From a virus: a DNA stretch of 26,720 nucleotides. The notes beneath the pieces were generated by a model. The model was not told the DNA's origin, ran no database searches, and saw nothing but the letters and a program-made list of their open reading frames with translations. Below, piece by piece: positions 8,951-26,231 of the stretch (positions within the stretch are counted from its first letter, which is position 1; each line of letters begins with the position of its first letter). Location of the stretch: positions 1-26,720 of the IMG/VR virus record IMGVR_UViG_3300049482_000052; one strand, given 5' to 3'. Both the position numbers and the translations under genes were made by a program.

Positions 8951-9071
8951 TTCCTCGCCGACGCTGGAAAGAACCCGACACAGCGATGGTTTTGCCAATG
9001 GTGTCTGTTCTTGGCCTTTTGCTGCCATTGGTGTAGTCTTCCTGCAGAAAATCCATCGTTGGAGAGATGAA

Positions 9072-9677: not shown

Positions 9678-9740
9678 TCAGCCGGTATAAGGCACCCGCG
9701 CGGTAAGGATTACTGACTACGCGCGCACTAACGTTACTCA

Positions 9741-9863
9741 TATCCGTAATACCCTTATCCGTATAAAGACACCCTAATGGGTGTCTTATTATACATACTT
9801 GTTCTTTCTTTCTTACTTCCTTTCTTCTTCTTCTTCTTCTTACGGATAATCCGTATACGGATA
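9741..9863. repeat. five copies of TATCCGTA in both orientations
   Basis: TATCCGTA is at 9741 and 9756 on the plus strand. TACGGATA is at 9841 and 9856, with AATCCGTA at 9848 between them. The last group includes the 14-base palindrome ATCCGTATACGGAT (9849-9862). The copies flank a terminator and a polypyrimidine tract. The arrangement is iteron-like or operator-like. Confidence 0.6.
9766..9787 (+). terminator. rho-independent terminator-like hairpin
   Basis: AAGACACCC-TAAT-GGGTGTCTT is a perfect 9-bp stem with a 4-base loop, followed by a T-rich tail (ATTATACATACTTGTTC). It lies about 90 bases after the Gly/Met-rich gene. Confidence 0.7.
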
Positions 9864-9885
9864 AGATATAAAAAAAAGACATACA

Positions 9886-9957
9886 CCTCTTAGTATAACA
9901 CAGGAGTCTCTTCTAGTAGTACCCTCTTAGTATAACATGAATAGTCTTCTGTAGTAC
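9886..9957. repeat. two tandem units of about 36 bp
   Basis: The 15-mer CCTCTTAGTATAACA is exact at 9886-9900 and 9923-9937. Each copy is followed by a related AGTCT-CTTCT-GTAGTAC tail, giving units of 37 and 35 bases. Confidence 0.65.
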
Positions 9958-9996
9958 AAGAGTAGTAAGTAAGAGTAGTAAGTAAGAGAAGTAAGT
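9958..9996. repeat. three tandem 13-bp repeats
   Basis: AAGAGTAGTAAGT occurs twice in a row, and a third copy has one change (AAGAGAAGTAAGT). They follow directly on the 36-bp units. Confidence 0.7.
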
Positions 9997-10000
9997 AAGA

Positions 10001-10033
10001 CGCGCGCGAGGCGTATACGTGCGCGCACACGCG
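10001..10033. other. alternating purine-pyrimidine tract, possible Z-DNA
   Basis: CGCGCGCGA is followed after one break by 23 bases (10011-10033) of unbroken purine-pyrimidine alternation. Inside are the palindromes CGTATACG and GTGCGCGCAC. Such tracts can adopt left-handed DNA under supercoiling. Confidence 0.6.
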
Positions 10034-10069
10034 AGGGCAGCAAAAAACACTTGTTGCGGAGATGGAACC

Positions 10070-10123
10070 ATGGCAGAAAAAGGATGCGTCCACATGGACT
10101 GCGACCTCCCTCAACTGACCTGA
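10070..10123 (+). CDS. possible 17-residue leader peptide ahead of the large terminase
   Basis: A frame reads MAEKGCVHMDCDLPQLT and stops. GGAG lies eight bases upstream, and the stop overlaps the first arm of the hairpin at 10117-10143. The setting, a short peptide running into a hairpin before a major gene, resembles a leader peptide. It may also be chance. Confidence 0.25.
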   Translation: MAEKGCVHMDCDLPQLT

Positions 10124-10143
10124 CGTTCCAGTAGCGTCAGGTC
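10117..10143 (+). terminator. hairpin just upstream of the large terminase
   Basis: GACCTGACG and CGTCAGGTC pair perfectly over 9 bp around a 9-base loop, followed by TTCTT. It ends 15 bases before the large terminase ATG. It may be a terminator, an attenuator or a structure controlling the ribosome site. Confidence 0.5.
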
Positions 10144-10158
10144 TTCTTACAGGTAGAG

Positions 10159-12558: not shown

Positions 12559-12742
12559 GCCACCCAGACCCATGTCGGTGGAGGCAGAAGAGCAACATGC
12601 CAGTCTGAAACTCAGACACGCCCGTGCCCATGACCGGCTGAAATCCGGAGGAGGCAGGCCGTCTCGTGCCCACCACGAAGAGGAAGAAGTAGCCAGAGCC
12701 AATTTAAGGGCTTTTGAGCGGAAATACGGCTTGACATCCTGA
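12509..12742 (+). CDS. small helical protein after the large terminase, about 77 aa
   Basis: The frame overlaps the terminase end by 50 bases. AGGA lies nine bases before the ATG at 12509; later starts at 12536 and 12572 (MSVEAEEQHASLKLRHARAH) are possible but have no better ribosome site. The last 50 residues are a highly charged helix (HHEEEEVARANLRAFERKYG), probably a coiled coil. It vaguely resembles the short YdcH-like helical proteins seen near phage packaging genes. Function unknown. Confidence 0.55.
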   Translation: MKKTTKTGIMHLSSTTEPPRPMSVEAEEQHASLKLRHARAHDRLKSGGGRPSRAHHEEEEVARANLRAFERKYGLTS

Positions 12743-13113
12743 CCCAGACGGGTATCTTCACCCATGCCAAGTTCCGACTGGTGGTTTGAGTGCTACGCCT
12801 CGCGCGTGTGATCGCGAAAGCCAAGGGCAAGAACAGGGACAACGGTTTCCCCCGTATGCAGGGAAGGGCCGTGGGGTGTTCTCTCCTCCCTCACACCTCA
12901 CGGCCAACCCACCGCCTTCTGGTGGTGCATCTTTCGGACGATTGGGCGTAGTCGATCCGGTCAACCAACGCCAAGGTTGGGATGTACCTCCTGAGTGCGG
13001 CAGGACATTTGCAGAGTGGTTGCGAAAGCCCCACAACGGTCCTCTGTCAACGCTGCAGTAAGACGGTCGCCGCACTCTTCACCTTCCCCTTCCCGTGAGC
13101 GATGATCTCCTGT
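12743..13113. other. gene-free stretch upstream of the portal gene
   Basis: About 370 bases hold no gene I can support. A 91-codon frame (12786-13061) starts only with TTG and looks random. A 38-codon frame near 12980 has a weak AAGG upstream. The stretch ends in the dyad element at 13114. It probably carries the promoter of the head genes. Confidence 0.5.
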
Positions 13114-13129
13114 AAGTTCAATGGAACTT
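13114..13129. promoter_or_regulatory. 16-bp dyad element, copy 6 (perfect)
   Basis: AAGTTC-AATG-GAACTT is a perfect inverted repeat ending two bases before the GGGAG ribosome site of the portal gene. The same order, dyad then ribosome site then start, is seen before the AAA+ ATPase gene at 979. Confidence 0.62.
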
Positions 13130-13144
13130 TTCGGGAGACAGCCC

Positions 13145-15625
13145 ATGAACATGGTCGCGCCACTTCTGCCCAATGACATCGAGATCGAGCAGGACGAACC
13201 TCCGGTCGAAGTCGAAGTTGAAGGTGAGGCAAGTCTCACCGAGAACGAAGACGGCAGTGTGGACATCGAGTTCGGGGAGCCGGAGGGCGAAGTCGCAGAT
13301 GTGATCCCCCATGAGGCAAACCTTGCCGCCAACCTGAAGGAAACCGACTTGATGGGCCTTGCTTCTGACCTTGTTCAGAAGTTCGAGGCTGACCGCATGT
13401 CTCGCAAGGACTGGGCTGTGGCCTACGTGAAGGGTCTGGACCTCCTTGGTATGAAGATCGAGGACCGCAGCCAGCCATGGGATGGAGCCTCCGGCGTCTT
13501 CCACCCGATGATGCTTGAGGCAGCCGTCAGGTTCCAAGCGCAAGCGATGGGGGAACTCTACCCTGCCTCTGGACCCGTCCGGTCCAAGGTCATGGGGAAG
13601 ATGACCACCGAGAAGTTCGATCAGGCAAACCGCGTCCAGACCGAACTGAACTATGTGATCACCGAGAAGATGACCGACTACCGTGAAGAGACGGAGCAGA
13701 TGCTCTTCCGTCTTTCCCTTGCAGGCTCTGCCTTCAAGAAGGTTTACTTCGACATCAACACCGATATGCCTCGCTCCGTTTTCATTCCCGCTGAAGACTT
13801 CGTGGTCGAGTACGGGTCTTCCAGTCTGGAGGATTGCGAGCGGTACACCCACGTCATGCGCAAGACGAACAACGAGGTGAAGAAGCTGCAGGCGGCTGGC
13901 CTCTACTGCGAGTGCGATCTCCCTGCCCCTGCCTCCGACGCCAACATCATCAAGCAGAAGACCGACCAGTTGAAGGGCGAGACCGAGCCTTTCATCGAGG
14001 ATGGCAGGCACATCCTTCTGGAGATGCACGTCGAACTGGTCCTGCCCGGAGAGATCGACGGAGAACTGGCCCGGCCCTACATCATCACCATCGACAAGAC
14101 CTCCACCAAGGTCCTGTCCTTGTACCGGAACTGGGCGGAAGACGACGTCCTGAAGCGCAAGCGCATGCACTTCACCCATTACCAGTACCTCCCCGGCATG
14201 GGTTTCTATGGCATTGGATTGATCCACCTGATCGGTGGTCTGACCAAGAGCGCCACATCCATCATCCGCCAGCTTATCGACGCTGGCACCCTTGCCAACC
14301 TTCCTGCCGGTCTGAAGGCGCGGGGTCTCCGGATCAAGGGCGACAACACCCCCCTGAAGCCGGGAGAGTTCCGGGATGTCGATGTGCCGGGTGGCTCGAT
14401 CCGGGATGCCATCACCTTCCTTCCGTACAAGGAACCCTCTGGTGTCCTCTACTCGCTCCTTGGGAACGTCGTGGAAGAGGGTCGGCGCATCGGATCGGTG
14501 GCAGACGTCAAGATCAGCGACATAAGCGCACAGGCCCCTGTTGGCACCATGCTGGCCATCCTTGAGCGAAACCTGAAGGTGATGTCGGGCATTCAGGCCC
14601 GGCTTCACAATTCCATGCGCAAGGAACTCCGCCTCATCGCGGCGATCATCTACGACTACATGGACGACGACTACGCCTACGACGTCGGTGGAGACTTTTC
14701 CAGAACCGAAGACTTTGACGGTCGGGTGGATGTGATCCCGGTGTCTGACCCCAACGCCGCCACCATGGCGCAAAGGGTCGTTCAGTACCAAGCGGCGCTG
14801 CAACTCGCACAGCAGGCACCGCAACTGTACGACATGGGGAAACTTCACCGGCAGATGCTGGAGGTCCTTGGCATTCAGGACGCCGGAGACATCATCAAGC
14901 TTCCGGACGACATCAAGCCGAAGGACCCTGTGAGCGAGAACATGGCGATCCTCAAGCAGGAGCCTGTGAAGGTTTTCCTCTATCAGGATCACGAGGCTCA
15001 CATTTCCGTCCACATGGCTGCGATGCAGGACCCCAAGCTTCAGCAGATGGTCGGGCAGTCCCCCTTCGCCAGCGCGATCCAGTCTGCCATGGCATCTCAC
15101 ATCACCGAGCATGTGGCGATGCAGTACCGCAAGGAGATCGAGAAGACCCTTGGTACCTCCATGCCTTCCGAAGACGAGATCATGCCGGAGGACGTCGAGG
15201 TCGAACTCTCCCGGCTTGTGGCGATGGCAGCGGGCAAGCTTCTGCAGAAGAACCAAGCGGAAGCTGCAGCAGCAGAGGCAGCGAAGCAGGAGGCCGACCC
15301 CCTCACCCAAATCCAGAAGCAGGAACTGGCGATCAAGGAAGCCAAGGTCCAAGGCGATCTGGCGAACGATGCCAAGCGCATTGCTCTGGACGAGAAGAAG
15401 GCCGACGACAACATGGCCATCCAGCGCGAGCGCCTCGCCTCCGAGAACAAGAGGGCAGGGGCACAGCTTGGTGTCCGTGTCGCCTCCCAGATCGAAGATG
15501 TGAAGGTCAAGCAGAAGACCGAAGGGGCGCGACTTGGCATCAAGGTCGCGACAGACCTTGCCAAGATCGACCTGCAGAAAGAGCAGATGAAGTACCAGAG
15601 GAAGAACAACAACGATGGAAACTGA
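13145..15625 (+). CDS. portal protein, 826 aa
   Basis: The start is MNMVAPLLPNDIEIEQDEPP at 13145, with GGGAG seven bases upstream; the in-frame ATG at 13121 lies inside the dyad. After an acidic N-terminus (15-55) comes a portal core with WDGASGVFHPMMLEAAVRFQ, then SLAGSAFKKVYFD, then FIPAEDFVVEYGSSSLEDCE. The last 130 residues are an Ala/Gln/Lys/Glu-rich coiled coil. These motifs match portals of podovirus-type phages that I remember. Twelve copies would form the DNA entry ring at one capsid vertex and anchor the terminase and tail. Order (after terminase, before scaffold and capsid) agrees. Confidence 0.88.
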   Translation: MNMVAPLLPNDIEIEQDEPPVEVEVEGEASLTENEDGSVDIEFGEPEGEVADVIPHEANLAANLKETDLMGLASDLVQKFEADRMSRKDWAVAYVKGLDLLGMKIEDRSQPWDGASGVFHPMMLEAAVRFQAQAMGELYPASGPVRSKVMGKMTTEKFDQANRVQTELNYVITEKMTDYREETEQMLFRLSLAGSAFKKVYFDINTDMPRSVFIPAEDFVVEYGSSSLEDCERYTHVMRKTNNEVKKLQAAGLYCECDLPAPASDANIIKQKTDQLKGETEPFIEDGRHILLEMHVELVLPGEIDGELARPYIITIDKTSTKVLSLYRNWAEDDVLKRKRMHFTHYQYLPGMGFYGIGLIHLIGGLTKSATSIIRQLIDAGTLANLPAGLKARGLRIKGDNTPLKPGEFRDVDVPGGSIRDAITFLPYKEPSGVLYSLLGNVVEEGRRIGSVADVKISDISAQAPVGTMLAILERNLKVMSGIQARLHNSMRKELRLIAAIIYDYMDDDYAYDVGGDFSRTEDFDGRVDVIPVSDPNAATMAQRVVQYQAALQLAQQAPQLYDMGKLHRQMLEVLGIQDAGDIIKLPDDIKPKDPVSENMAILKQEPVKVFLYQDHEAHISVHMAAMQDPKLQQMVGQSPFASAIQSAMASHITEHVAMQYRKEIEKTLGTSMPSEDEIMPEDVEVELSRLVAMAAGKLLQKNQAEAAAAEAAKQEADPLTQIQKQELAIKEAKVQGDLANDAKRIALDEKKADDNMAIQRERLASENKRAGAQLGVRVASQIEDVKVKQKTEGARLGIKVATDLAKIDLQKEQMKYQRKNNNDGN

Positions 15626-15803
15626 GATCATTGCAGCGATCATGGAGCGCATCGCTTCCATGAAAAGTGCAAACGAACTATTCCTTGCCGGTGGCGGGGC
15701 CAAGTCCTTCGAGGAGTACTGCAGGATCGTCGGAGAGTATTCCGCCCTTCAAAAGGTCGAAGGAGAACTAAAAGACCTTGAGCAACGCTACATTGAAAGC
15801 TAG
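15615..15803 (+). CDS. small coiled-coil protein, 62 aa
   Basis: The protein starts METEIIAAIMERIASMKSAN. Its ATG overlaps the portal end by 11 bases, so translation is coupled. It is nearly all helix, ending in a heptad-like YSALQKVEGELKDLEQRYIE. Small proteins of this kind are common after portal genes; the role is unknown. Confidence 0.76.
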   Translation: METEIIAAIMERIASMKSANELFLAGGGAKSFEEYCRIVGEYSALQKVEGELKDLEQRYIES

Positions 15804-15866
15804 TGTGCGTTCCAAGGCCTGAGCAGCCGGGTGACTGTGGTACCCTGAACCACTGCGGAGTGAGAG

Positions 15867-16235
15867 ATGTACACACCTGAAAAGGTAGACGACGAGGAAC
15901 TGCTTGCGAAGCTTCCTCAGCCCCAAGGATACCGGCTGCTTATCGCGATCCCCGAGATCACCGAAAAGACAGAAGGCGGAGTGTTCATCCCGGATGAGCG
16001 CCGCGCCGGGGAAGAGACAGCCTCCATCATCGGCTATGTCATGCGAGTGGGGCCGGATGCCTATTCTGATCCAGCCCGCTTTCCACTAGGGCCGTGGTGC
16101 AAGGAGGGAGACTTCGTGATCTTTCGTTCCTACTCGGGCACCCGCTTCAAGGTTCAGGGCCGTGAGTTTCGCCTGATCAACGATGACACCGTGGAAGCCA
16201 CGGTCGAAGACCCAAGGGGGTACAGCCGCGTATGA
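15867..16235 (+). CDS. GroES-like co-chaperonin
   Basis: The 122-residue protein has the chaperonin-10 pattern. YRLLIAIPEITEKTEGGVFI (22-41) covers the first strand and mobile loop. SIIGYVMRVGPDAY (53-66) and CKEGDFVIFRSYSGTRFKVQ (78-97) follow, with FRLINDDTVEATVED at the end. GGAG six bases before the ATG at 15867 supports the start. Phage GroES-like proteins work with the host GroEL to fold the capsid protein, which fits the place among head genes. The normal mobile-loop hydrophobic triad is not obvious, so partner use could differ. Confidence 0.82.
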   Translation: MYTPEKVDDEELLAKLPQPQGYRLLIAIPEITEKTEGGVFIPDERRAGEETASIIGYVMRVGPDAYSDPARFPLGPWCKEGDFVIFRSYSGTRFKVQGREFRLINDDTVEATVEDPRGYSRV

Positions 16236-17152
16236 ACGTCAAGGTGGGTGAAGAAGACGACGATCTGGACGGGATCGAAATCGAGGTGGTGGATGACACC
16301 CCGGAAGAAGACCAGAACCGGCCCCGTCGCCCGGAGGACGCAGAGCCTGCGATCCCGGACGATGACGAGATTGCCGGGTACTCCGAGACGGTGCAGAAGC
16401 GCATCAAGCGTCTCCGTTACGAGTTCCATGAGGAGCGCCGTGGCAAGGAGGCCGCAACCCGTGAGCGGGACGAGGCCATCGAATTAGCCCGGCGTACATC
16501 GGAGGAACTGAAGCAGGCCCGCCAAAACGTGACGCAGGGCGAGACCGTCGCCATTGATCAGGCCAAGAAGCGGGTTCAGGCCCAGCTTGAGCAGGCGGAG
16601 AGGGCCTACAAGGAGGCTTACGAGAGTGGTGACAGTGATGCCCTTGTGAAGGCTCAGGGTGCCCTCACCGACATCAAGAACGAGCAGTACCGCCTTGCCA
16701 CCTTCAAACCCCAGCAGCGGCCCGTAGCGACCCCACAGACCCCCGCTGCGACCCCGCAGGCTCCGACAGTGCCGAAGCCTTCTGTCCGCGCTGAGGGATG
16801 GGCAGAGAAGAACGACTGGTTCGGCAAGCCCGGAAGTGAGGATTTGACGGCACAGGCATTCGTCGCTCATGAGCGCGCAATCAAAAGCGGGATTGCTCCA
16901 GACACTGATGAGTACTATAAGTTCATTGACGGGGCGGTTCGAAAGACCTTCCCTGATCGGTTCCAAGACGTTGACAAGGGTCAGCAACAGCGTCAAAGAC
17001 CGAGCGTCGTGGTTGCTCCGGCTGCGCGGTCTGCCAGTCAAAACCCACGCAAAGTGACGCTGACCGCGACCCAAGTCTCCATCGCCAAGAGGCTCGGGGT
17101 TTCATTGCAACAGTATGCGGCGCAAATGTTGAAGGACCAAAGCAATGGCTGA
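16232..17152 (+). CDS. scaffolding protein, 306 aa
   Basis: The ATG overlaps the GroES-like stop as ATGA. The protein is acidic at first (EEDDDLDGIEIEVVDDTPEE). A long coiled coil follows (about 50-155, YSETVQKRIKRLRYEFHEER onward). Next is a Pro/Ala/Gln linker (about 160-185) and a C-terminal domain with basic helices (KVTLTATQVSIAKRLGVSLQ). This composition and the position just before the capsid genes are typical of scaffolding proteins, which guide prohead assembly and then leave. The C-terminal basic helices probably contact the capsid shell. Confidence 0.8.
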   Translation: MNVKVGEEDDDLDGIEIEVVDDTPEEDQNRPRRPEDAEPAIPDDDEIAGYSETVQKRIKRLRYEFHEERRGKEAATRERDEAIELARRTSEELKQARQNVTQGETVAIDQAKKRVQAQLEQAERAYKEAYESGDSDALVKAQGALTDIKNEQYRLATFKPQQRPVATPQTPAATPQAPTVPKPSVRAEGWAEKNDWFGKPGSEDLTAQAFVAHERAIKSGIAPDTDEYYKFIDGAVRKTFPDRFQDVDKGQQQRQRPSVVVAPAARSASQNPRKVTLTATQVSIAKRLGVSLQQYAAQMLKDQSNG

Positions 17153-17591
17153 CCGTACTCCCCGCGTGCAAACCAACCGCGAAAGTGGAGAACGGAAAAA
17201 AGGCTGGAAACGTCAGTCCCTCTTGCCGACCCCCGACCCCGAAGACGGATACAAGTTCCGTTGGGTTCGCACCTCCACCATGGGCGCAGAGGACAACAAG
17301 AACGTGTCGAGCCGTTTCCGCGAGGGTTACATCCCTGTGCTGTCTGCCGACCACCCTGAACTCAAGATCATGTCTGACCACAACTCGCGGTTCCCTGAGA
17401 ACATCGAAGTCGGCGGTCTGATCCTGTGCAAAATTCCCGTAGAGTTTGCGGAAGACCGCATCGAAGGGCAGCTTGAACAAGCCAAGGCCCAGATGGACGC
17501 GGTAGACCGGAACTACATGCGAGACAGCGATCCTCGGATGCCAATGCTGCGGCCCGAGCGGTCATCGAAGACAACCTTTGGGCGGGAATGA
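17145..17591 (+). CDS. head-region protein, 148 aa
   Basis: The protein starts MADRTPRVQTNRESGERKKG and overlaps the scaffold end by eight bases, with AAGGA before the ATG. The N-terminus is basic and disordered. The middle (EDGYKFRWVRTSTMGAEDNK) has a compact beta pattern, and the end is helical. A protein of this sort between scaffold and capsid is common in related phages and may be a virion protein. No specific role is known to me. Confidence 0.76.
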   Translation: MADRTPRVQTNRESGERKKGWKRQSLLPTPDPEDGYKFRWVRTSTMGAEDNKNVSSRFREGYIPVLSADHPELKIMSDHNSRFPENIEVGGLILCKIPVEFAEDRIEGQLEQAKAQMDAVDRNYMRDSDPRMPMLRPERSSKTTFGRE

Positions 17592-17622
17592 TCCCGTCTT
17601 GAACCGACACGGAGGATGAGAC

Positions 17623-18243
17623 ATGGCAACTATTGCCTCTCCCTACGGTCTACGCCCAATCAAGCGGGCAGACGGCATTGCGTATGCCGGGGCCAACTCT
17701 ATCTATGCGATTGATCCTGCCGGTACGGCGACCAACCTTTTCTACGGTCAGGTCGTCCACATGAACGCCAGTGGTTTCATCGTTCTGTCAACCGCCACGG
17801 GCGCTGACGCAACAACCAACGCGCTGCCGACTGGCACCACCCTCACCGGCTCCCTCGGGGTCTTTGTGGGCTGCGAGTACGTCAACGCACAAGGCCAAGT
17901 GATCCAGTCCCAGTACTACCCGGCTGGCTACGTCGCCCCCACCGGCACGGACATCAAGGCCTACGTCATTGACGATCCGAACGTGCTGTTCCAAGCCCAG
18001 CTTTCGGGCACTGGCGCGCAGACGATCCTTGGGACAAATACCTTCTTCACGGCAGTACAGTCCACTTCGACTGGCTTCACGCGGACGGGTAACTCGACCT
18101 CGTCTCTGACGTCTTCCGTGGTCACGACGACCGCAGCCTTCCGCATCGTCGGACACGTTTCGCCGACCACTGACGCCTTCGTTGACGTTCTGGTCAAATT
18201 CAACCCCGGCTATCACAGCCTGACCAACGCTGTTGGCCTGTAA
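17623..18243 (+). CDS. capsid-associated structural protein, 206 aa
   Basis: The protein starts MATIASPYGLRPIKRADGIA, with GGAGGA upstream of the ATG at 17623. It is rich in Thr, Ser, Gly and Ala and predicted all beta (AYAGANSIYAIDPAGTATNL). The opening MATIASPYGLRP is a hallmark I remember from virion proteins encoded directly before the major capsid protein. A decoration or minor capsid role is the best guess. It pairs with the major capsid gene 13 bases downstream. Confidence 0.8.
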   Translation: MATIASPYGLRPIKRADGIAYAGANSIYAIDPAGTATNLFYGQVVHMNASGFIVLSTATGADATTNALPTGTTLTGSLGVFVGCEYVNAQGQVIQSQYYPAGYVAPTGTDIKAYVIDDPNVLFQAQLSGTGAQTILGTNTFFTAVQSTSTGFTRTGNSTSSLTSSVVTTTAAFRIVGHVSPTTDAFVDVLVKFNPGYHSLTNAVGL

Positions 18244-18256
18244 GGAGGGCTGAAAC

Positions 18257-19162
18257 ATGGCAATTTCTCGCGCACAGGCCCTCAAGGAACTGCTTCCCGG
18301 TCTCAATGCCCTCTTTGGCCTTGAGTATGCGAAGTACGAAAATGAGCATGCCGAAATCTACGACACCGAAACTTCGGAGCGCAGCTTCGAGGAAGAACTC
18401 AAGCTTTCTGGCTTCGGGGCTGCCCCGGTAAAGCCCGAAGGCACCGCCATCGCCTATGACAACGCGCAGGAGGCTTTCACTGCCCGTTACAACCACGAGA
18501 CCGTGGCGATGGGCTTCTCGATCACCGAAGAGGCAATGGAGGACAACCTCTATGACAGCCTCTCGGCTCGGTACACGAAGGCGCTGGCACGGGGCATGTC
18601 CTACACCAAGCAGGTGAAGGCTGCCTCCCTACTGAACTTTGGCTTCACCACTGCCATCGGTGGCGACGGTGTGGCTCTGTTCTCCACCGTCCACCCTACG
18701 GTTCAGGGTGTCGTCAACCGCAACCGCCCGACCACCGACGTTGACCTGAACGAGACCGCAATCGAACAGGCCATCATCGACATCGCGGCCTACGTCGATG
18801 AGCGCGGTCTTCTGATCGCGGCCAACGCTCGGAAGCTGATCGTTCCCCCGGCACTGATGTTCGTGGCCACCCGTCTTCTGCAGACGGAACTGCGCGTCGG
18901 CACGTCGGACAACGACCTGAACGCGATGAAGCAGATGGGGTCGATCCCGGAGGGGTTCCGTGTGAACCACTACCTGACCGACAACGACAGTTGGTACATC
19001 AAGACCGACATCCCGAACGGCTACAAGCACTTCGTTCGTGTCGCGATGACCACGGCAATGGACGGGGATTTCGACACTGGGAACGTGCGCTACAAGGCGC
19101 GTGAGCGTTACTCCTTTGGCGTGTCAGACCCTCTGGCCTTTTACGCATCTACCGGCGCTTGA
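18257..19162 (+). CDS. major capsid protein, 301 aa
   Basis: The protein starts MAISRAQALKELLPGLNALF, with AAGGAGGG before the ATG at 18257. ELLPGLNALFGLEYAKYENE, then ETVAMGFSITEEAMEDNLYD and SARYTKALARGMSYTKQVKA, match a common HK97-fold capsid family of tailed phages, related to the Mu-type capsid proteins. The spine-helix region and an AIGGDGVALFSTVHPTVQGV loop are intact. The length is normal. It assembles the icosahedral shell with the scaffold encoded upstream. A strong terminator follows within 30 bases, as expected for the most abundant virion protein. Confidence 0.9.
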   Translation: MAISRAQALKELLPGLNALFGLEYAKYENEHAEIYDTETSERSFEEELKLSGFGAAPVKPEGTAIAYDNAQEAFTARYNHETVAMGFSITEEAMEDNLYDSLSARYTKALARGMSYTKQVKAASLLNFGFTTAIGGDGVALFSTVHPTVQGVVNRNRPTTDVDLNETAIEQAIIDIAAYVDERGLLIAANARKLIVPPALMFVATRLLQTELRVGTSDNDLNAMKQMGSIPEGFRVNHYLTDNDSWYIKTDIPNGYKHFVRVAMTTAMDGDFDTGNVRYKARERYSFGVSDPLAFYASTGA

Positions 19163-19190
19163 CGTAAATTCCACAGGGATAGAAGAACCG

Positions 19191-19220
19191 AAGGGGGCAA
19201 GGAGAAATCCTTGCCCCCTT
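19191..19220 (+). terminator. strong rho-independent terminator after the capsid gene
   Basis: AAGGGGGCAAGG and CCTTGCCCCCTT form a perfect 12-bp stem with loop AGAAAT, followed by TTTCCCTTTCC. It lies 28 bases after the capsid stop codon. Confidence 0.88.
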
Positions 19221-19261
19221 TCCCTTTCCGGCCTACTATTCCCTGAACACAGGAGATCATC

Positions 19262-19522
19262 ATGAGCGATGCTGTAAGCAACGTCCTCTCTCCGTGGGGG
19301 TGTCTTCCTCCAGAACGCATAGTGATCAAGGAACTTGTCGATGGCCTTGAGAAGATGCTTGAGAAGGCGAGGGCCGGAGAGATCGTCGGCGCTGTCCTTG
19401 TCTCCGGACATCACGATCAAACTTCTTCCTTTTCCATTCTCGGGGCTGTCGGCACCTACTCCCTCGTTGGTGCCATGACCATCGCTGCGAGGAACTTGGA
19501 GCATATCACCAACAGTGAGTGA
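19262..19522 (+). CDS. hypothetical protein, 86 aa
   Basis: The protein starts MSDAVSNVLSPWGCLPPERI, with AGGAG six bases before the ATG. A helix (ELVDGLEKMLEKARAGEIVG) is followed by beta strands (AVLVSGHHDQTSSFSILGAV) and a final helix (VGAMTIAARNLEHI). This helix-strand-strand-helix pattern with ARAGEI and a late GA-helix recurs in small phage proteins that I cannot name. It is transcribed separately from the capsid gene, between a terminator and a dyad element. Confidence 0.75.
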   Translation: MSDAVSNVLSPWGCLPPERIVIKELVDGLEKMLEKARAGEIVGAVLVSGHHDQTSSFSILGAVGTYSLVGAMTIAARNLEHITNSE

Positions 19523-19523
19523 A

Positions 19524-19539
19524 AAGTTCACTAGAACTT
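19524..19539. promoter_or_regulatory. 16-bp dyad element, copy 7 (perfect)
   Basis: AAGTTC-ACTA-GAACTT is a perfect inverted repeat, just after the 19522 stop and about 70 bases before the next gene group. TACACT lies 15 bases after the right arm (19555-19560), a possible -10 box for the tail genes. Confidence 0.62.
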
Positions 19540-19610
19540 CTTCACCGCCTCGCGTACACTGTCGCTGTTCCTGATGGGATCATCCCAACAAGCCACGACA
19601 GGAGTTCAAC

Positions 19611-20075
19611 ATGGCAAAAGCAACATTCCAAGGACTTGTACGGTCCACTGGCGGCGCGGCTCGTGAGACCGGCGTCACCCCGGCTCCGCTCATCATGAGC
19701 GTGGTCATCTCCTTCAACCCCACCCTCGGCACCGCAACCCCGGTTCGCGTCGGAACCTCTGCTGTCGCTGGTCTGCTCTTCACCCTTCCTGCGGGTGCAG
19801 TACCGACGACTTTCGTCTCCCTTGGCGGAGCGACAGGTGGTGCCTCCCCGACCGTTGACATCGGCACCGTCGCCTCTCCGGACGGCTTCTTCAACGAAGC
19901 GGACGCGGACACCAAGGGCGTCATCACTGGCAACAACGGCACCATCTCGGCCAACGGCGGCATCCCTGCTGCTGTGGTTGTCACGGGCCGTGTCGGAGCC
20001 TCTGCGGCGGCTGGCGGTACCACCACGGGCATCTTCAGCTACACGATGGCAGACGACGCCTCCGAACTGAACTAA
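19611..20075 (+). CDS. virion structural protein, 154 aa
   Basis: The protein starts MAKATFQGLVRSTGGAARET, with AGGAG before the ATG. It is rich in Gly, Ala, Thr and Val and predicted all beta (VVISFNPTLGTATPVRVGTS). A long Gly/Ala/Thr tail (GGIPAAVVVTGRVGASAAAG) follows. Such composition is typical of virion decoration or head-fibre proteins in marine phages. It heads a new group of genes after the dyad element. Confidence 0.72.
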   Translation: MAKATFQGLVRSTGGAARETGVTPAPLIMSVVISFNPTLGTATPVRVGTSAVAGLLFTLPAGAVPTTFVSLGGATGGASPTVDIGTVASPDGFFNEADADTKGVITGNNGTISANGGIPAAVVVTGRVGASAAAGGTTTGIFSYTMADDASELN

Positions 20076-20085
20076 GGGGTAGATC

Positions 20086-20367
20086 ATGGCTCAGAACCAG
20101 ACCACGGTCACATGCCCCGCTGGGGTCTGGACCCAACTGACCAACTCTGACGTGACGGAGATCACCTTTCAGGTTCAGACCGGATCGGTGTACATCCGCT
20201 TCACGACCGACACGACCACCCCCGTGGAGACACGGGGCATGCAGTACAATGAGGGAGAGGGTGAGTTGCAGAAAGCAATGACTGACCTCACCTCTCTCGC
20301 TTCGGCTGACCGTGTGTGGGCAAGGCCGTTGGGTCGGCGAGCAATTGTGGTGGTGGACACCAACTGA
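20086..20367 (+). CDS. virion-associated beta protein, 93 aa
   Basis: The protein starts MAQNQTTVTCPAGVWTQLTN, with AAGGGG before the ATG. Predicted beta strands dominate (TEITFQVQTGSVYIRFTTDT), and the end (DRVWARPLGRRAIVVVDTN) closes a small sandwich. Compact proteins with this opening occur as minor virion proteins in several phages. The stop overlaps the next start as TGATG. Confidence 0.72.
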   Translation: MAQNQTTVTCPAGVWTQLTNSDVTEITFQVQTGSVYIRFTTDTTTPVETRGMQYNEGEGELQKAMTDLTSLASADRVWARPLGRRAIVVVDTN

Positions 20368-21884
20368 TGAAGACTTTCCATTCCCGGCCTTTTGGCATGC
20401 TCTCGCCGTTCTGGGGCGGGGATGGTCTTTCTCTGTCTCAGCAGGTGGGGAAAATCCTTGAAGGTTCGGCGGGCTTTGTTCTCGATCCTCTCGACCTCAC
20501 CCGGATGTGGCAGGACAGCGGCGGCACTACCCCGGTCACTGTGGCCGGTGATCCAGTCGGTCGGATCAGTTCAAACTTTGGCTCGGGGGTTCGCAACTTC
20601 CTGCAAAGCACCGCTGGCTTTCGCCCCACCTTCGACATCTACGGCAACCTTGTTCTGGACGGAACGGATGACCGGCTGGTCTTTGCCAACACTTCCGCCT
20701 TCCGGGGTGTTTCAGCAGCGACCGTCATCTGCAGCATCAAGCCGAGTTCCTTGGCCGCGCAGTGTTCGCCCTACCATTTCAGCAACGGGCTTGTGGCTTC
20801 AGATCAGCGCATGAGTGCAGAGATCGAGACAACCGGGGCCGTCACCTTGACCATGCGCAGGCTGGACGCTGATGCCGCCCAAGTCATGGTCTCTGCCGCT
20901 GGCGTCGTGAACACCTCAGAGACAGCAATCATTTCGCACGATGTCAGCTTCTCCTCCACCGGCAACGCCCGGTGCTGGGTCAATGGGGTGCTGGTTGCCA
21001 GCATGACGATTGGAGGCAGCCTTGGCGTCTCCGAAAACGTCAACAGCCTCGTTGCCAACATTGGCTCCCGCGACACCCTTGATGTCTTCCCCGGCCAGAT
21101 CGGGCGCGTCTTTGTCGCTCCATTCCTTCTGACCGATGCCCAGCGCGCGATTGTCGAGGCGTGGGTCGGCGAGTATGCCATGGTCGATCCGCTGACTTTG
21201 TTCACCGCTGGCGGTGGTTCTGGCACTGGCGTTCTGTTCGACACCAAGCAAAGCCCAATGTTCTCTGATGCCGGGGTTACGCCCGCCGTTCCTGCCGGGT
21301 CGGTCTATCGGATTACTGATCGGGTGGCGGGCCAGTTCTCGGATCAGCCCACCGCAGGCTTTCAGGGCATCCTGCAGGCTGGCGGCGGTATCCTGACGGA
21401 CGGTGTGGATGACCTGATCCCGTCGCCCCTTACGCCTTTTGCAATCAGTGCTGGTGCCTACACCATTGTCACCGTGACGGCACTGGATGCCGTCCAGAGT
21501 GGGTCAGTTGACGCTTATCTCTTTGCCCAGCGCACCAACAATGGAAACCGCCAGATGATCATGTCTACCCTCTCGACGGGGCGGGCGCAGGTTGTCGTAG
21601 GAAACTCGGGCAACAATATCAACGAAAACCTTTCGTCTCCGATCCTTAACGGAACAACGAGAGTTGTGGTAATGACGCGCGATGCAAGTGGCGTCATCCA
21701 ACTTTTTGTCGATGGTGTCTCTTGGGGGACCGCCACCTCTGACGCGCCCTCTGCAGCAGCACCAGCATGGCACGGCCATTCGGCTATCGGAGGTTTTCTC
21801 AAGGGCGTCTTCAAGGGCGGTCTCATCATCAGTCGCGTCATGACTCCGGCTGAAATGCTCCGCTGCAAGAGGTATTGGCAATGA
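20367..21884 (+). CDS. two-lobed LamG/concanavalin-like protein, 505 aa
   Basis: The ATG at 20367 overlaps the previous stop as TGATG and is preferred to an upstream start at 20316. Two similar lobes are visible. The first (about 35-280) has LVLDGTDDRLVFANTSAFRG, CWVNGVLVASMTIGG and IGRVFVAPFLLTDAQRAIVE. The second (about 290-505) has DGVDDLIPSPLTPFAI, QLFVDGVSWGTATSD and LIISRVMTPAEMLRCKRYWQ. The order D-G-D-D, later W/F-V-N/D-G, then a closing strand is that of laminin-G-like jelly rolls, which bind sugars or proteins. It is probably a virion adhesin or head fibre. The end LRCKRYWQ resembles closing helices of such modules. Confidence 0.8.
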   Translation: MKTFHSRPFGMLSPFWGGDGLSLSQQVGKILEGSAGFVLDPLDLTRMWQDSGGTTPVTVAGDPVGRISSNFGSGVRNFLQSTAGFRPTFDIYGNLVLDGTDDRLVFANTSAFRGVSAATVICSIKPSSLAAQCSPYHFSNGLVASDQRMSAEIETTGAVTLTMRRLDADAAQVMVSAAGVVNTSETAIISHDVSFSSTGNARCWVNGVLVASMTIGGSLGVSENVNSLVANIGSRDTLDVFPGQIGRVFVAPFLLTDAQRAIVEAWVGEYAMVDPLTLFTAGGGSGTGVLFDTKQSPMFSDAGVTPAVPAGSVYRITDRVAGQFSDQPTAGFQGILQAGGGILTDGVDDLIPSPLTPFAISAGAYTIVTVTALDAVQSGSVDAYLFAQRTNNGNRQMIMSTLSTGRAQVVVGNSGNNINENLSSPILNGTTRVVVMTRDASGVIQLFVDGVSWGTATSDAPSAAAPAWHGHSAIGGFLKGVFKGGLIISRVMTPAEMLRCKRYWQ

Positions 21885-22429
21885 GTTTTTCCGCCATTAT
21901 CCCAGCCGCCAACCTTGCAGCCGCCAACGCAACGCTGCAGGCGCAGGGTTACGGCCCCGGAAACTTCTCCGTCCCTTTGCGGGTGGGTCCGACCGATGCA
22001 GAGGCCAGTCATGTCGGCATGAACGCGATTGCGGGTAGCGCCGCCTTCCGCGCTGCCGTTGCGGCCTTGCCGGGAGTATCCATGCGGGACGCGCCGCTGG
22101 GTGCAGTCGAGTTTGCCCCGCACACAACAGCACAGGCTCTGCGCTGGGAAGGTCCGGAGAACTGGATTGCCAGCCCGGTGATGATCGGCGCGCAGCGCAG
22201 CTATTCCGGCAAGACTTGGGAAAGCCTTGTCGATTACAACGTCTGGACGCCACCTGTCGCATGGCGCGAGGTGGTGGTCACGGGCTATCCGGCATGGGTC
22301 CAGCCGACCGGGGCGCATGATGCTTATGCTCTTGGCTTCATCGTGACGCACCTTGGCCAGAACTGGATCAGCGACTATGCTGCGAACGTGTGGGCACCCG
22401 GCGCGTTCGGCTGGACTGTGAAACCATAA
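21881..22429 (+). CDS. carbohydrate-binding (CBM5/12-like) virion protein, 182 aa
   Basis: The ATG overlaps the previous stop as ATGA. The N-terminal half is an Ala-rich helical region. The C-terminal half has two tryptophan-rich repeats. Residues 97-128 have SYSGKTWESLVDYNVWTPPV. Residues 138-178 have FIVTHLGQNWISDYAANVWA then PGAFGWTV. The G-x-W-x-S, N-x-W-x-P, W pattern is that of CBM5/12 chitin-type binding modules. With the LamG-like protein upstream, it probably helps the virion bind surface glycans. Being encoded between head and connector genes rather than with tail fibres is unusual. Confidence 0.78.
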   Translation: MSFSAIIPAANLAAANATLQAQGYGPGNFSVPLRVGPTDAEASHVGMNAIAGSAAFRAAVAALPGVSMRDAPLGAVEFAPHTTAQALRWEGPENWIASPVMIGAQRSYSGKTWESLVDYNVWTPPVAWREVVVTGYPAWVQPTGAHDAYALGFIVTHLGQNWISDYAANVWAPGAFGWTVKP

Positions 22430-22443
22430 AAGGATACCAAGTG

Positions 22444-22614
22444 ATGCCACAACTCGGACCACACATCTACCCGGACACTGACGAGGGAAAAGAGGCCCAC
22501 AGAGCGATGAAGGCCCGGATGGAGGGTAAGGGTGCCAAAAAGGCCAAAGCCCCTCCTGCGGTCTCCGTTGAGCCTGTAGAGGCCACTCCCGAACCAGTGG
22601 ACCCCAAGGAGTAA
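22444..22614 (+). CDS. small disordered protein, 56 aa
   Basis: The protein starts MPQLGPHIYPDTDEGKEAHR. AAGGA lies nine bases before the ATG at 22444; an adjacent GTG (22441) is possible. The first half is a charged helix. The second half is Lys/Ala/Pro/Glu-rich and disordered (AKAPPAVSVEPVEATPEPVD). Function unknown; it sits just before the connector genes. Confidence 0.62.
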   Translation: MPQLGPHIYPDTDEGKEAHRAMKARMEGKGAKKAKAPPAVSVEPVEATPEPVDPKE

Positions 22615-22617
22615 CCC

Positions 22618-23295
22618 ATGCCATCAGTCGTTCCGGACATGCCTGATCTTTTCGAGGAAGCCTATGAGAGGGCTGGCCTTGAGATGCGTTCCGGGTATGA
22701 ACTGAAGACGATCCGGCGCAGCTTGAACATCATGACGCTGGAGTGGGCCAACCGGGGTATCAACCTCTGGACCATCGAAGAGGGTACCCTCACCCTTGTA
22801 GCCGGGACCGCAACCTACACCCTACCGGCTGACACTATCGACCTGATCGAGCATCAGCTTCGCACCGGCACCGGGTCCAGTCAGACGGATACCTTTGTCG
22901 AGAGGGTGTCTGTCTCCACCTACGCACAGCAGACCAACAAGAACCTGCAGGGCAGACCGACCCAAATCTTCATCCAGCGCCTTGCCACCAGCACCACTGC
23001 GACCATGTGGCCTGTCCCTGATGCTCGCATCCCCTACACGCTGTTCTACTACCGCCTGAAGGGCATCGACGGCCTCACGGGTGGTATAGGGGCCACGGTC
23101 ACCTCCGTGCCTCCACGTTTCGTCCCTGCGCTTGTGGCGGGCCTCGCCTTCCATATTGCCTCGAAGAAGAAGGAAGCCATGCAGATGGTCCCCATGCTCA
23201 AGCAGGAGTATGAGGCTCAGTTCGCTCTGGCGGCAGAGGAGGACCGGGATCGCTCCTCGGTCTCCTTCGTTCCCTACAACTCTTGGGGGTCATGA
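22618..23295 (+). CDS. head-tail connector or tail-tube-like protein, 225 aa
   Basis: The protein starts MPSVVPDMPDLFEEAYERAG at 22618, four bases after the previous stop and with AAGGAG upstream. It has a helical N-terminus (LKTIRRSLNIMTLEWANRGI), then a beta core (NLWTIEEGTLTLVAGTATYT, GRPTQIFIQRLATSTTATMW) and a helical end. I remember the WANRGINLWTIEEG block from connector-type proteins in podovirus-like phages, next to genes like the two that follow. It probably sits between portal and tail. The stop overlaps the next gene as ATGA. Confidence 0.74.
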   Translation: MPSVVPDMPDLFEEAYERAGLEMRSGYELKTIRRSLNIMTLEWANRGINLWTIEEGTLTLVAGTATYTLPADTIDLIEHQLRTGTGSSQTDTFVERVSVSTYAQQTNKNLQGRPTQIFIQRLATSTTATMWPVPDARIPYTLFYYRLKGIDGLTGGIGATVTSVPPRFVPALVAGLAFHIASKKKEAMQMVPMLKQEYEAQFALAAEEDRDRSSVSFVPYNSWGS

Positions 23296-23606
23296 TGGCC
23301 TACGCGCGTGGCAGCAAGGCGCTTGGTGTGTGCGACAAGACAGGGTTCACTTACCTTCTGAAGGACCTTGTCTTCGAGTACGTCAACGGGCAGCGCACCG
23401 GCTTCAAGGTTGGCAGGGATGTTGCCGATCCTGATCACCCGCAGAACTTTCTCGGGCAGTTGAAGATCAACGATCCTCAGTCCCTCTTTCAGCCCCGGCC
23501 AGACAGCAACCGGGATGAAGGCAACGCTCTCTGGGGATGGAGGCCGGTCGGGCATCCCTCCGTGCTGATGACTGCAGGCGTCGGAACTGTGACGGTGACA
23601 ACATGA
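23292..23606 (+). CDS. conserved phage protein with degenerate zinc ribbon, 104 aa
   Basis: Two tandem ATGs overlap the previous stop. The sequence includes VCDKTGFTYLLKDLVFEYVN and DVADPDHPQNFLGQLKINDP, then LWGWRPVGHPS. I recall this family with a CxxC pair near the start and another CxxC before the DPDHPQ block. Here only one cysteine (VCDK) is left, so the zinc site is lost. The protein lies between connector genes and is probably a minor virion or assembly protein. Confidence 0.74.
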   Translation: MMAYARGSKALGVCDKTGFTYLLKDLVFEYVNGQRTGFKVGRDVADPDHPQNFLGQLKINDPQSLFQPRPDSNRDEGNALWGWRPVGHPSVLMTAGVGTVTVTT

Positions 23607-24253
23607 CCTATGCTGAGTTGGTTGCCGCGATACAGTCGTATACGGAAAACTACGAATCCACCTTCGTGGCCACCATTCCGACGTTCGTGCGTCAGGTCGA
23701 AGAGCGCATACACCGCTCCCTGATGATCCCCGAACTCCGCAAGAACGTCACCGGCAACATGACGGCCAACAACCGTTACCTTGCCCGACCTGCCGACTTT
23801 CTTTCGCTGTTCTCCTTTGCCGTGATCGACGGCACCGGAGCCTACAGCTACCTGATCGACAAGGACATGAACTTCATCCGGGAAGCGTACCCCAATCCTA
23901 CCACCACCGGGGTGCCTCGCTTCTATGCCCAGTTCGATGGTGAAGTTCCCACCCTGACCGGCAACTTCCTTCTCGGGCCGACCCCAGATCAGGCTTATGG
24001 GGTGGAACTGCAGTATTACTACGATCCTCCTTCCATTGTGGACGCGGGAACGTCGTGGCTTGGTGAGAACGCAGAGACCGTCCTTCTCTATGGCAGCCTT
24101 TTGGAGGCTTACACTTTCATGAAGGGTGACGGCGACATGATGTCGGTCTACAAGTCCCGGTATGAGGATGCTTTGGCGGGGATGGGGATCATCGACGTCA
24201 GAAGCAAGAGGGACAGCTACAGGGATGGCGACATGAGGGTCCAAGAGCAATGA
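23603..24253 (+). CDS. adaptor / tail-tubular-protein-A-like protein, 216 aa
   Basis: The ATG at 23603 overlaps the previous stop as ATGA; the longer frame upstream lies inside the previous gene. The protein starts MTYAELVAAIQSYTENYEST and continues FVRQVEERIHRSLMIPELRK. Later come NRYLARPADFLSLFSFAVID and NAETVLLYGSLLEAYTFMKG. This is a helical ring protein pattern, as in the gp11-like adaptors of T7-type podoviruses. It would bind below the portal and carry the short tail. It ends with a charged tail and overlaps the next gene as ATGA. Confidence 0.78.
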   Translation: MTYAELVAAIQSYTENYESTFVATIPTFVRQVEERIHRSLMIPELRKNVTGNMTANNRYLARPADFLSLFSFAVIDGTGAYSYLIDKDMNFIREAYPNPTTTGVPRFYAQFDGEVPTLTGNFLLGPTPDQAYGVELQYYYDPPSIVDAGTSWLGENAETVLLYGSLLEAYTFMKGDGDMMSVYKSRYEDALAGMGIIDVRSKRDSYRDGDMRVQEQ

Positions 24254-24546
24254 GCAGCAGCATCATCGACATCCCGCGTGACCGGGTCGTGGTAGGGGTC
24301 CATACTACCAGTGGCAGGGGCTTTACTCCGGAGGAGATCGCGGCCCGCGCCTCTCGTCAGATCATGCACGTCGCTGAAACAGCGCCCGCTCCGATCCGTG
24401 ATCAGGCCATGGCATTTCAGGCCCAGATCGAAAGGGCAATGGTCGAGTACATGAAACAAGCCATCGCCAGCCACAACACGACGGTGTACAATGTTCTCAA
24501 AGAAGGCGGTTATCATGATGCCGCCGAACTGATCAGGAAACTGTGA
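24250..24546 (+). CDS. conserved phage protein, 98 aa
   Basis: The ATG overlaps the adaptor stop. The protein starts MSSSIIDIPRDRVVVGVHTT. Residues 50-98 are helical (RDQAMAFQAQIERAMVEYMK then QAIASHNTTVYNVLKEGGYH). I remember the IRDQA-x-AF...YM-x-QAI pattern from small proteins next to phage connector genes. It may be a chaperone or minor virion protein. It is the last of a run of overlapping genes before a hairpin and the ATC-start gene. Confidence 0.72.
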   Translation: MSSSIIDIPRDRVVVGVHTTSGRGFTPEEIAARASRQIMHVAETAPAPIRDQAMAFQAQIERAMVEYMKQAIASHNTTVYNVLKEGGYHDAAELIRKL

Positions 24547-24565
24547 GACCTAGAAATAAGTCTCA
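24544..24565 (+). promoter_or_regulatory. weak hairpin after the overlapping gene run
   Basis: TGAGAC and GTCTCA form a 6-bp stem around CTAGAAATAA, overlapping the stop codon of the preceding gene. No U-run follows, so it is not a clear terminator. Confidence 0.4.
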
Positions 24566-24587
24566 TACGAGCAGATAGGAGGCTATC

Positions 24588-25034
24588 ATCGCTTTCACAG
24601 GTAATTTCGTCGCCACCAGTTTCAAGCAGCAACTGCTTGAGGGCGCGCATGACTTCCGCCTGACATCGGGCGACGTCTTCAAGCTGGCTCTCTACACCAA
24701 CTCCGCTTCCTTCACGGCGGCAACCACGGCCTATACTGCGACCAACGAGGTGGGTGCTTCAGGTTCCTACGCGGCTGGTGGCGGGACGCTGACCAACATC
24801 AGCCCCACGGCCTCCGGCACCACAGCCTTCACGGACTTCGCCGACCTGACCTTCACGGTCGCTACGATCACTGCCCGTGGTGCCCTGCTCTACAACACCA
24901 CCCCGACCCACACCTACACCAACCCTGTCTGTGTGGTCTTGGACTTCGGCTCCGACCGAACCTCCACAGCGGGAGACTTCACCATCGTCTTCCCGACCGC
25001 CGACAGCACCAACGCCATAATTCGCGTGGCATAA
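24588..25034 (+). CDS. virion structural protein with apparent ATC start, 148 aa
   Basis: In-frame translation from ATC at 24588 gives (I)AFTGNFVATSFKQQLLEGA, then HDFRLTSGDVFKLALYTNSA. A perfect AGGAGG (24577-24582) lies five bases upstream. An in-frame TAG (24576-24578) rules out an upstream start, and the next ATG/GTG-type start is GTG at 24750, deep inside. I know this beta-rich family as beginning MAFTGNF, with the same GDVFKLALYTNSA and SNAIIRVA-type ends, so ATC stands exactly where ATG is expected. Translation from ATC, a sequencing error, or a nonfunctional gene are the options. The rest of the frame is intact. Confidence 0.75.
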   Translation: MAFTGNFVATSFKQQLLEGAHDFRLTSGDVFKLALYTNSASFTAATTAYTATNEVGASGSYAAGGGTLTNISPTASGTTAFTDFADLTFTVATITARGALLYNTTPTHTYTNPVCVVLDFGSDRTSTAGDFTIVFPTADSTNAIIRVA

Positions 25035-25045
25035 GGAGACACCCC

Positions 25046-25471
25046 ATGGCCATCCAATCCCAAGGTGCCCGGACGTCTGGCGTCACCATCGCCAACGCCA
25101 ACTTCGGCATCTACCCTCCCGCCACCGTCCGTTCGGCTTTGCTTGAATACGGCATGATCCAAGCGACAGGTACTGCCCAGTCCATCGGCTTGGGTCGCCC
25201 GGCCACTCTGGGCACCACGTCAGGCCCGGTGCTGTTCCAGCAAGACGACCCCGGTGATCCGGCGTCTGTGGTCAACGGTCATGTCACATGGTCCGTGCAG
25301 CCCACCACTCCGGCGATCTTCCACCGTCGCTGGAACTCGGCTGCCACCATTGGTGTCGGCATCATCTGGACCTTCCCTCGCGGCCTTGTCATTGCGGCCT
25401 CTGGTGCAGTGGTCGGCTGGAACATCACCACTGCCGTCGCCATGGACGTGAACGCAGTCGTAGACGCCTGA
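25046..25471 (+). CDS. virion structural protein, 141 aa
   Basis: The protein starts MAIQSQGARTSGVTIANANF, with AAGGAG before the ATG. It is all beta and rich in Val, Ala, Thr and Gly (GHVTWSVQPTTPAIFHRRWN, then GIIWTFPRGLVIAASGAVVG). Its end, GWNITTAVAMDVNAVVDA, looks like a closing strand. It sits 11 bases after the ATC-start gene and is probably a co-expressed minor tail or decoration protein. Confidence 0.74.
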   Translation: MAIQSQGARTSGVTIANANFGIYPPATVRSALLEYGMIQATGTAQSIGLGRPATLGTTSGPVLFQQDDPGDPASVVNGHVTWSVQPTTPAIFHRRWNSAATIGVGIIWTFPRGLVIAASGAVVGWNITTAVAMDVNAVVDA

Positions 25472-25482
25472 TCGAGGTTCCG

Positions 25483-25737
25483 ATGCTGGATGAAGATCGT
25501 TTCTTGCGGATGAAGCGGGACGCTGAAAGCGCGCCTGCCTACGTCTGCACGATCAAGATCAGCGTCAACTTCGACGGCACCATGAGCATGGACGGTCCCT
25601 TCGGTGACAAGGACCTGTTCCTGACCATTCTGGATCAGGCACGGGACTGCGTGAAGGCAAACGCCAAGCCCAAAGGTACCCTCATCGTTCCGCCCGATCA
25701 TGGCGAAGCGAAGGCAAGACCAGAGGGGTACTTCTGA
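25483..25737 (+). CDS. small conserved phage protein, 84 aa
   Basis: The protein starts MLDEDRFLRMKRDAESAPAY; GAGG lies five bases before the ATG at 25483. A beta segment (CTIKISVNFDGTMSMDGPFG) is followed by a helix (DLFLTILDQARDCVKANAKP). The beta-then-helix layout with a DG-x-MS-x-DGPFG loop is seen in small phage proteins of unknown role near tail genes. The stop overlaps the next start as TGATG. Confidence 0.7.
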   Translation: MLDEDRFLRMKRDAESAPAYVCTIKISVNFDGTMSMDGPFGDKDLFLTILDQARDCVKANAKPKGTLIVPPDHGEAKARPEGYF

Positions 25738-26231
25738 TGAGCCAGATGCTGGGCGGCGCTGAGATCACCACTGTTCTGGGCCGTAAGGATCGGAGACTTG
25801 TTCCGACCTATCAGGTCATCCGGCGTGAGCGGGACTTCATTGTGGACCGGGACCTACCGACATCCTATCCCGGAGGCTACGCAAACAACTTCTGGCCGGG
25901 TGGGCGTGGGTTCACTGGCGATGGAAGCGCGGATGTCGCCATACAGACCGCTGTGTGGGGTAGGTCGATAGCAAGACTGGCATGGGGCGCGGGAAGCCGT
26001 GTGGGTTTCGTCGGGATCACCTTCGATCAGAACGGAAACGTCCTTGCCGCTGTGACCTGCTCCCTGTTCCGGACCTCCACCAAGGAGTGGATTATGGATA
26101 TCGTTTCGGGTACAGACGGCAGCTTCCTCTTGCAGTCGTGGTACTCACCCGACAACCACTTCATTGTCTTTTCGAAAGCCGGGTCTCCGGAAGTTTTCGG
26201 AACCACAAGGCAAACGCTGGTAGGGGCATGA
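25737..26231 (+). CDS. virion protein with transthyretin-like domain, 164 aa
   Basis: The ATG overlaps the previous stop. The protein starts MSQMLGGAEITTVLGRKDRR. The last 75 residues (GFVGITFDQNGNVLAAVTCS then LFRTSTKEWIMDIVSGTDGS and FLLQSWYSPDNHFIVFSKAG) follow the pattern of carboxypeptidase-regulatory or transthyretin-like Ig folds: G-x-x-x-D-x-NG-x-x-L, then V-S-x-x-DG-x-F. Such domains decorate phage tails and fibres. The N-terminal part is not recognised. Confidence 0.74.
   Translation: MSQMLGGAEITTVLGRKDRRLVPTYQVIRRERDFIVDRDLPTSYPGGYANNFWPGGRGFTGDGSADVAIQTAVWGRSIARLAWGAGSRVGFVGITFDQNGNVLAAVTCSLFRTSTKEWIMDIVSGTDGSFLLQSWYSPDNHFIVFSKAGSPEVFGTTRQTLVGA

Follow-up and report, generated by a model that had tools for sequence, protein, structure and literature searches.

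Can a phage gene lying in a head-tail block be translated from an ATC codon? The question is raised by a gene in an IMG/VR virus record, of which a stretch of 26,720 bases (hereafter the window) was analysed. We propose, with a probability of about 0.8, that translation of this gene begins at the AUC at 24588, and that this AUC is a genuine, functional and repeatedly arisen start, read by the ordinary initiator tRNA with the help of a strong Shine-Dalgarno (SD) sequence.

The start site and its leader

The ATC start behind a perfect AGGAGG that an earlier note had pointed out is indeed present. On the plus strand, the SD sequence AGGAGG (24577-24582) is separated by a 5-base spacer from the ATC (24588-24590), and an ATG would have its G at position 24590. 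A second ATC (24585-24587) lies directly 5' of it, and the codons that follow are GCT TTC ACA GGT AAT TTC. An in-frame TAG (24576-24578, plus strand) overlaps the ribosome site, and only GAG GCT ATC ATC stand between this stop and codon 2. We thus agree with the note that no start exists upstream, as no NTG is found from the in-frame stop to the conserved N-terminus. Over codons 1-60, the single NTG in frame is the GTG at 24750 (codon 55), and a start there would take away one third of the conserved protein. The 21 other listed genes of the window have NTG starts at their listed places.

The leader GATAGGAGGCTATC (24574-24587, plus strand) contains the perfect inverted repeat GATAG-GAGG-CTATC, whose 4-base loop holds part of the SD sequence. 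A regulatory hairpin was considered on this basis and rejected, the fold being no better than that of shuffled sequences: positions 24566-24610 give -8.1 kcal/mol with a z of -1.22, which is not significant, and the z values are -0.20 and -1.22 for the window stretches and +0.50 for the related locus L083. The loci with ATT, described below, retain only TAG-GAGG-CTA of the repeat. An Rfam search found nothing near the site; its one match (E 0.81) lies elsewhere on the other strand, far below the gathering score. A DNA near-search among phages gave no match.

The upstream gene (24250-24546, plus strand, 98 aa, TGA stop at 24544-24546) has no match in PHROG or Pfam, and its C-terminus ...AELIRKL is similar to the one, ...AELIRRL, found in the preceding frame of many relatives with ATG. 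Upstream neighbour genes vary among loci. The stop is separated from the ATC by a spacer (24547-24587, plus strand), whereas in many relatives the start comes immediately after the upstream stop. Downstream, a gene of 141 aa (25046-25471, plus strand) has an ordinary AAGGAG ... ATG start.

The gene product

From the ATC, the frame runs intact over 148 codons (24588-25034, plus strand) to a TAA stop at 25034. The protein matches PHROG 644, a family without assigned function, over residues 6-144 (E 1.6e-17). An AlphaFold2 model, built with 84 family members, has a mean pLDDT of 95. Its best structural matches are viral proteins, among them the 'Structural protein' of Agrobacterium phage 7-7-1 (Foldseek E 2.8e-5); against the PDB, Foldseek returned no chain at E <= 0.001 and a sequence search nothing convincing. 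The window is a head-tail gene block comprising the small and large terminase, portal, a GroES-like co-chaperonin and the major head protein, with two SU10-adaptor-like genes upstream of the ATC site. We infer from this neighbourhood of terminase, portal, head and SU10-adaptor genes, and from the match to the 7-7-1 protein, that the product is probably a virion protein. The earlier description of it as an abundant one is not borne out: the gene does lie within the head-tail block, yet no function is assigned to PHROG 644. As a side observation, the co-chaperonin gene (PHROG 3188, 15867-16235) is located between the portal and head genes.

Start codons in the family

We then looked at the start position in 80 relatives taken from the more than 600 matches of a protein scan. 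It is ATG in 71 of them, GTG in five, TTG in one and ATT in one, and the remaining two have a different N-terminus with their own ATG one codon on. The family N-terminus MAFTGNF given in the earlier note was recovered among these 80. A variant beginning MAITQA... in place of MAFTGNF, with the ATG one codon later, was seen in L047, L056, L272, L275, L276 and L280. Relatives are found in six GenBank phage records, and the one opened starts with ATG. None of 18 relatives on genome contigs has ATH at the start position; these contigs come from metagenome bins of many phyla and from one single-cell style record, which does not by itself name a host. In the class of G001, none of the 385 searched genomes has the leader-ATH pattern.

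Residue 8, an almost invariant Met across the family, is Val (GTC, 24609-24611) in the window, as it is in L007. An internal start at codon 8, where nearly all of the family has ATG, was therefore discarded, the window having GTC there and no SD-like site being seen before this codon.

IMG/VR was scanned twice for other contigs of the family with ATC or ATT. The first scan, for GGAG, a gap of 3-10 bases, ATH and the family N-terminal codons, returned 10 contigs, of which eight are real, L087 and L091 being chance matches with 8-codon frames. The second, in which no ribosome site was demanded and more N-terminal codons were used, recovered exactly the same eight contigs. The start codon is ATC in five of them (L083, L084, L085, L088 and L090) and ATT in three (L053/L082, L086 and L089). 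They come from eight metagenome ids, and all eight have AGGAGG followed by a 5-base spacer, whether the SD sequence had been demanded or not. This spacing of exactly 5 bases before ATH in every contig is more than chance, and non-NTG starts thus occur outside the window as well. The five ATC contigs and the window have GATAGGAGGCTATCATCGC in common and differ in the preceding bases; the L083 group is identical to the window from the start of the leader (24574) through ATCGC.

Scans for CTG, GTG and TTG starts returned 39 contigs, and neither CTG nor ATA, both covered, gave any row in the family. In total 249 loci were scanned, 12 of which gave no row, and 185 distinct rows resulted. As non-ATG starts were searched exhaustively and ATG was not, the ATG rows are at least as many as counted, the start-codon proportions are biased and no ATH frequency can be derived from them.

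Selection on the gene

Between the window gene and nine relatives, pS is 0.59-0.78 and pN 0.12-0.20 over the whole gene, and codons 2-8 remain MAFTGNF-like despite many silent differences. Between L083 and L084, both with ATC, differences are found at 15.8 of 113 silent sites and 3.2 of 328 replacement sites; selection, which is strong here, thus maintained the protein while its start was ATC. The window gene is intact and under purifying selection. The earlier note had also considered a recent mutation. A one-off recent mutation, or a read error, does not agree with ATC or ATT behind the same AGGAGG and spacer in eight other contigs from eight metagenome ids, nor with purifying selection on the copies. 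It had further named ATG in relatives as a refutation: most relatives do have ATG, but the window start is not refuted by this.

Origin and spread of the ATC and ATT starts

A tree was built with 183 rows including the window, after removal of rows shorter than 130 aa and of those in which a protein recurred with an unchanged start codon. Every ATC or ATT row falls in one 33-row clade, which also contains many GTG and TTG rows. In a DNA tree of the coding sequence without codon 1, the nearest row to the window is L007, with ATG (support 90/97), and the sister of the L083 group is L153, also with ATG (100/97). Forcing all ATC and ATT rows together was rejected (p-AU 3.6e-5), as was forcing the three ATC rows together (p-AU 1.1e-9). 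A single origin being rejected, either several separate start changes took place or a short leader and start were exchanged by recombination. The common leader TAACGGRTAGGAGGCTA of L083 (ATC) and L086 (ATT) favours some exchange.

SD strength and start codon

The computed SD-antiSD duplexes of the ATH rows range from -10.2 to -11.0 kcal/mol, against a median of -9.3 for 114 ATG leaders. The window and L083 reach -11.0 kcal/mol and the ATT leaders -10.2 to -10.3. The difference between ATH and ATG has a p of 0.017, from five leaders and uncorrected for relatedness. On the other hand, the duplexes of GTG and TTG rows are not stronger than those of ATG rows (p 0.69), and after correction for relatedness weak starts in general showed no significant association with AGGAGG (sign test, median p 0.69). 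When ATH is taken separately, two pairs go the same way and none the other way, which are too few pairs. AGGAGG is also present in 17 distinct ATG rows, so that a weak start is not required by a perfect SD.

Proposed initiation at AUC and alternative explanations

How could such a codon be used? The perfect AGGAGG with its 5-base spacer would set the 30S subunit with the P site over the AUC. The ordinary initiator tRNA, with its CAU anticodon, would pair with the first two positions and leave a mismatch at the third, and the protein would begin with Met. IF3 may disfavour this AUC without excluding it: in passages of PMC10158994, IF3 is reported to reduce the product both of AUU decoded by a CAU anticodon and of weakly paired AUC. 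Less protein would probably be made than from AUG, and this output would be sensitive to the IF3 of the host. The lower expression suggested in the earlier note is in this respect plausible. Concerning initiation help encoded by the phage, no tRNA gene was found in the window or in eight loci.

Another explanation is termination-reinitiation, in which a ribosome that finishes at the TAG, or close to it, would restart on the nearby AUH, the identity of this codon having little weight. We consider it possible, though rather unlikely. In the loci read, the upstream frame stops about 4-24 bases from the start. The window has a possible mini-ORF of 11 codons (24543-24578, plus strand), whose GTG overlaps the upstream stop (GTGA) and which ends at the TAG in the ribosome site, at -12; it could feed reinitiation. 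The corresponding stops are at -17 in L083 and L086 and at -2 in L089. Moreover, non-canonical starts are usable in reinitiation and excess IF3 inhibits it, according to passages of PMC2268962. However, equally close upstream stops are observed in ordinary ATG relatives, so this arrangement does not mark the ATH cases. Reinitiation is in any case compatible with initiation at AUC and not exclusive of it.

One could also assume that the TAG is read through or recoded, the gene starting upstream and the ATC being an internal Ile codon. The window would then offer a GTG 15 codons before the ATC, and TAG ends none of the 22 listed window genes (7533-26231). This is nevertheless very unlikely, being already largely refuted by two loci: L089 has neither TAG nor NTG between the preceding stop and its ATT, and L286, from another family, has no NTG even if TAG is read. 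In addition, AGGAGG stands exactly 5 bases from the codon aligned with the ATG of relatives, the extensions that readthrough would add show no relation from one locus to the next, and no suppressor tRNA was found in the window or in eight loci.

An assembly or sequencing error hiding a true ATG has slightly less credit still. The window is one virus record and most relatives have ATG, but the five ATC and three ATT contigs, from eight metagenome ids and all with AGGAGG at 5 bases, make an error very unlikely. The 19-base identity with the L083 group is also kept despite a DNA identity of 72.5% between the L083 and window genes, and errors would yield other near-ATG codons too, such as the ATA and CTG for which the family gave no row. 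Finally, decay of the gene into a relic that lost its start is the least probable explanation: loss of ATG in one record would look alike, but the 148-codon frame is intact, a perfect SD is retained in all ATH loci, and the purifying selection seen even between two ATC copies already refutes it, unless these copies have only very recently derived from ATG ones.

The same leader before other phage genes

We also checked whether the leader precedes other genes. A scan for TAGGAGGCTANN-ATH-NCN-TTY, which requires [A/S/T/P]-F at residues 2-3 and thus samples part of the possible cases, returned 12 contigs. Seven belong to the PHROG 644 family, three have long, unrelated ORFs and the other two short frames. 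A slightly wider leader-ATH scan gave 26 contigs and one further unrelated ORF. Eight of the 26 belong to the PHROG 644 family and four are other probable virion ORFs; the remainder consists of three near-identical 45-codon frames with ATG upstream, four short frames (L283, L285, L301 and L302) and seven sites that lie within a longer frame or have a long open one before them.

AGGAGGCTANN-ATH therefore stands before four unrelated probable virion or tail ORFs, as in the PHROG 644 family. The ORF at L282:3087 (ATT, 234 aa) matches an SU10 adaptor / PHROG 6013 tail protein from residue 2, that at L284:8684 (ATC, 104 aa) matches a PHROG 26298 virion structural protein from residue 2, and that at L286:5499 (ATT, 330 aa) has a tail collar domain and a PHROG 30879 match from residue 2. 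The fourth, L309:10322 (ATC, 208 aa), is tail-fibre-like, its N-terminus lying outside any profile match. A long open frame precedes the L282 ORF too, but terminates at the TAG. Among annotated phages, the relatives examined for L282, L284 and L286 have ATG starts. In other IMG/VR phages, ATAGGAGGCTATC followed by ATG GCT TTT is found before unrelated short virion-like ORFs (MAFARVGLCRIGG..., MAFALSGL..., MAFTKANL...), the loci with this ATG-type leader being L251, L253-L260, L262 and L263.

As the leader is present before unrelated ORFs with either ATG or ATH, it is a strong ribosome site common among the virion genes of phages, and the third base of the start is not always G. A more tentative hypothesis, which we think doubtful at present, would be that (A)TAGGAGGCTANN-ATH is a recurring transferable initiation leader of at least five unrelated virion families. 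It would combine a very strong SD with a deliberately poor AUC or AUU, its output would track the IF3:ribosome ratio and rise late in infection, and it would be missed by gene callers restricted to ATG, GTG and TTG.

Comparison with known systems

A parallel can be drawn with infC, which starts with ATT in E. coli but with ATC in Streptomyces according to passages of PMC5472188, and which has, like the window gene, an AUH start behind an SD sequence. The earlier note had proposed infC-type starts for comparison, and we judge this the right one. An AUH is located where homologues have their AUG; a strong SD lies at a working distance in the window, as in all eight family contigs with ATH; no usable in-frame NTG is present in the window, L089 or L286; and the start is kept in relatives, with five ATC and three ATT contigs in several lineages mixed with ATG sisters. 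Unlike the window gene, a probable phage structural gene with no IF3 link of its own, infC belongs to the host and encodes a product that reads the start of this very gene, and in PHROG 644 most members start with ATG.

Passages of PMC13009471 describe conserved starts behind extended SD sequences in Staphylococcus aureus, in cvfC1 (AUU), ccpN (AUA) and infC (AUA), and report that AUU and AUA starts with a strong SD give about 10% of the AUG output in poor medium. Like the window, this set joins a non-canonical start to an unusually strong start-proximal SD, whereas it consists of low-copy bacterial genes with another leader sequence and, in those passages, includes no phage virion gene. Streptomyces sigR, with a GTC start repressed by IF3 (passages of PMC5472188), is similar in having a conserved non-canonical start missed by gene callers. 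It is different in its codon and in being a regulator gene, and the control by IF3, tested in sigR where it sets the level, would apply to the window by analogy. According to PMC5622118, the SD strengthens after switches from AUG to GUG or UUG, again a weaker start with a stronger SD, but our family concerns AUC and AUU and its general weak-start trend was not significant.

Within the open-licence literature, we found no paper describing phage virion genes that start with AUC or AUU; prior reports are possible in subscription papers. The mechanism is known from bacterial genes, and its recurrence in phage virion or structural genes is the new part. Very few genes starting with AUC or AUU have been characterised, and those compared here are bacterial, several of them regulatory. 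Gene callers limited to ATG, GTG and TTG would shorten or miss such genes, and the window gene would then begin at codon 55 (GTG 24750). A structural phage gene that repeatedly loses its AUG and keeps a perfect SD provides natural replicates for the SD strength that an AUC or AUU start needs, and the same replicates bear on whether phages tune their protein ratios through the start codon.
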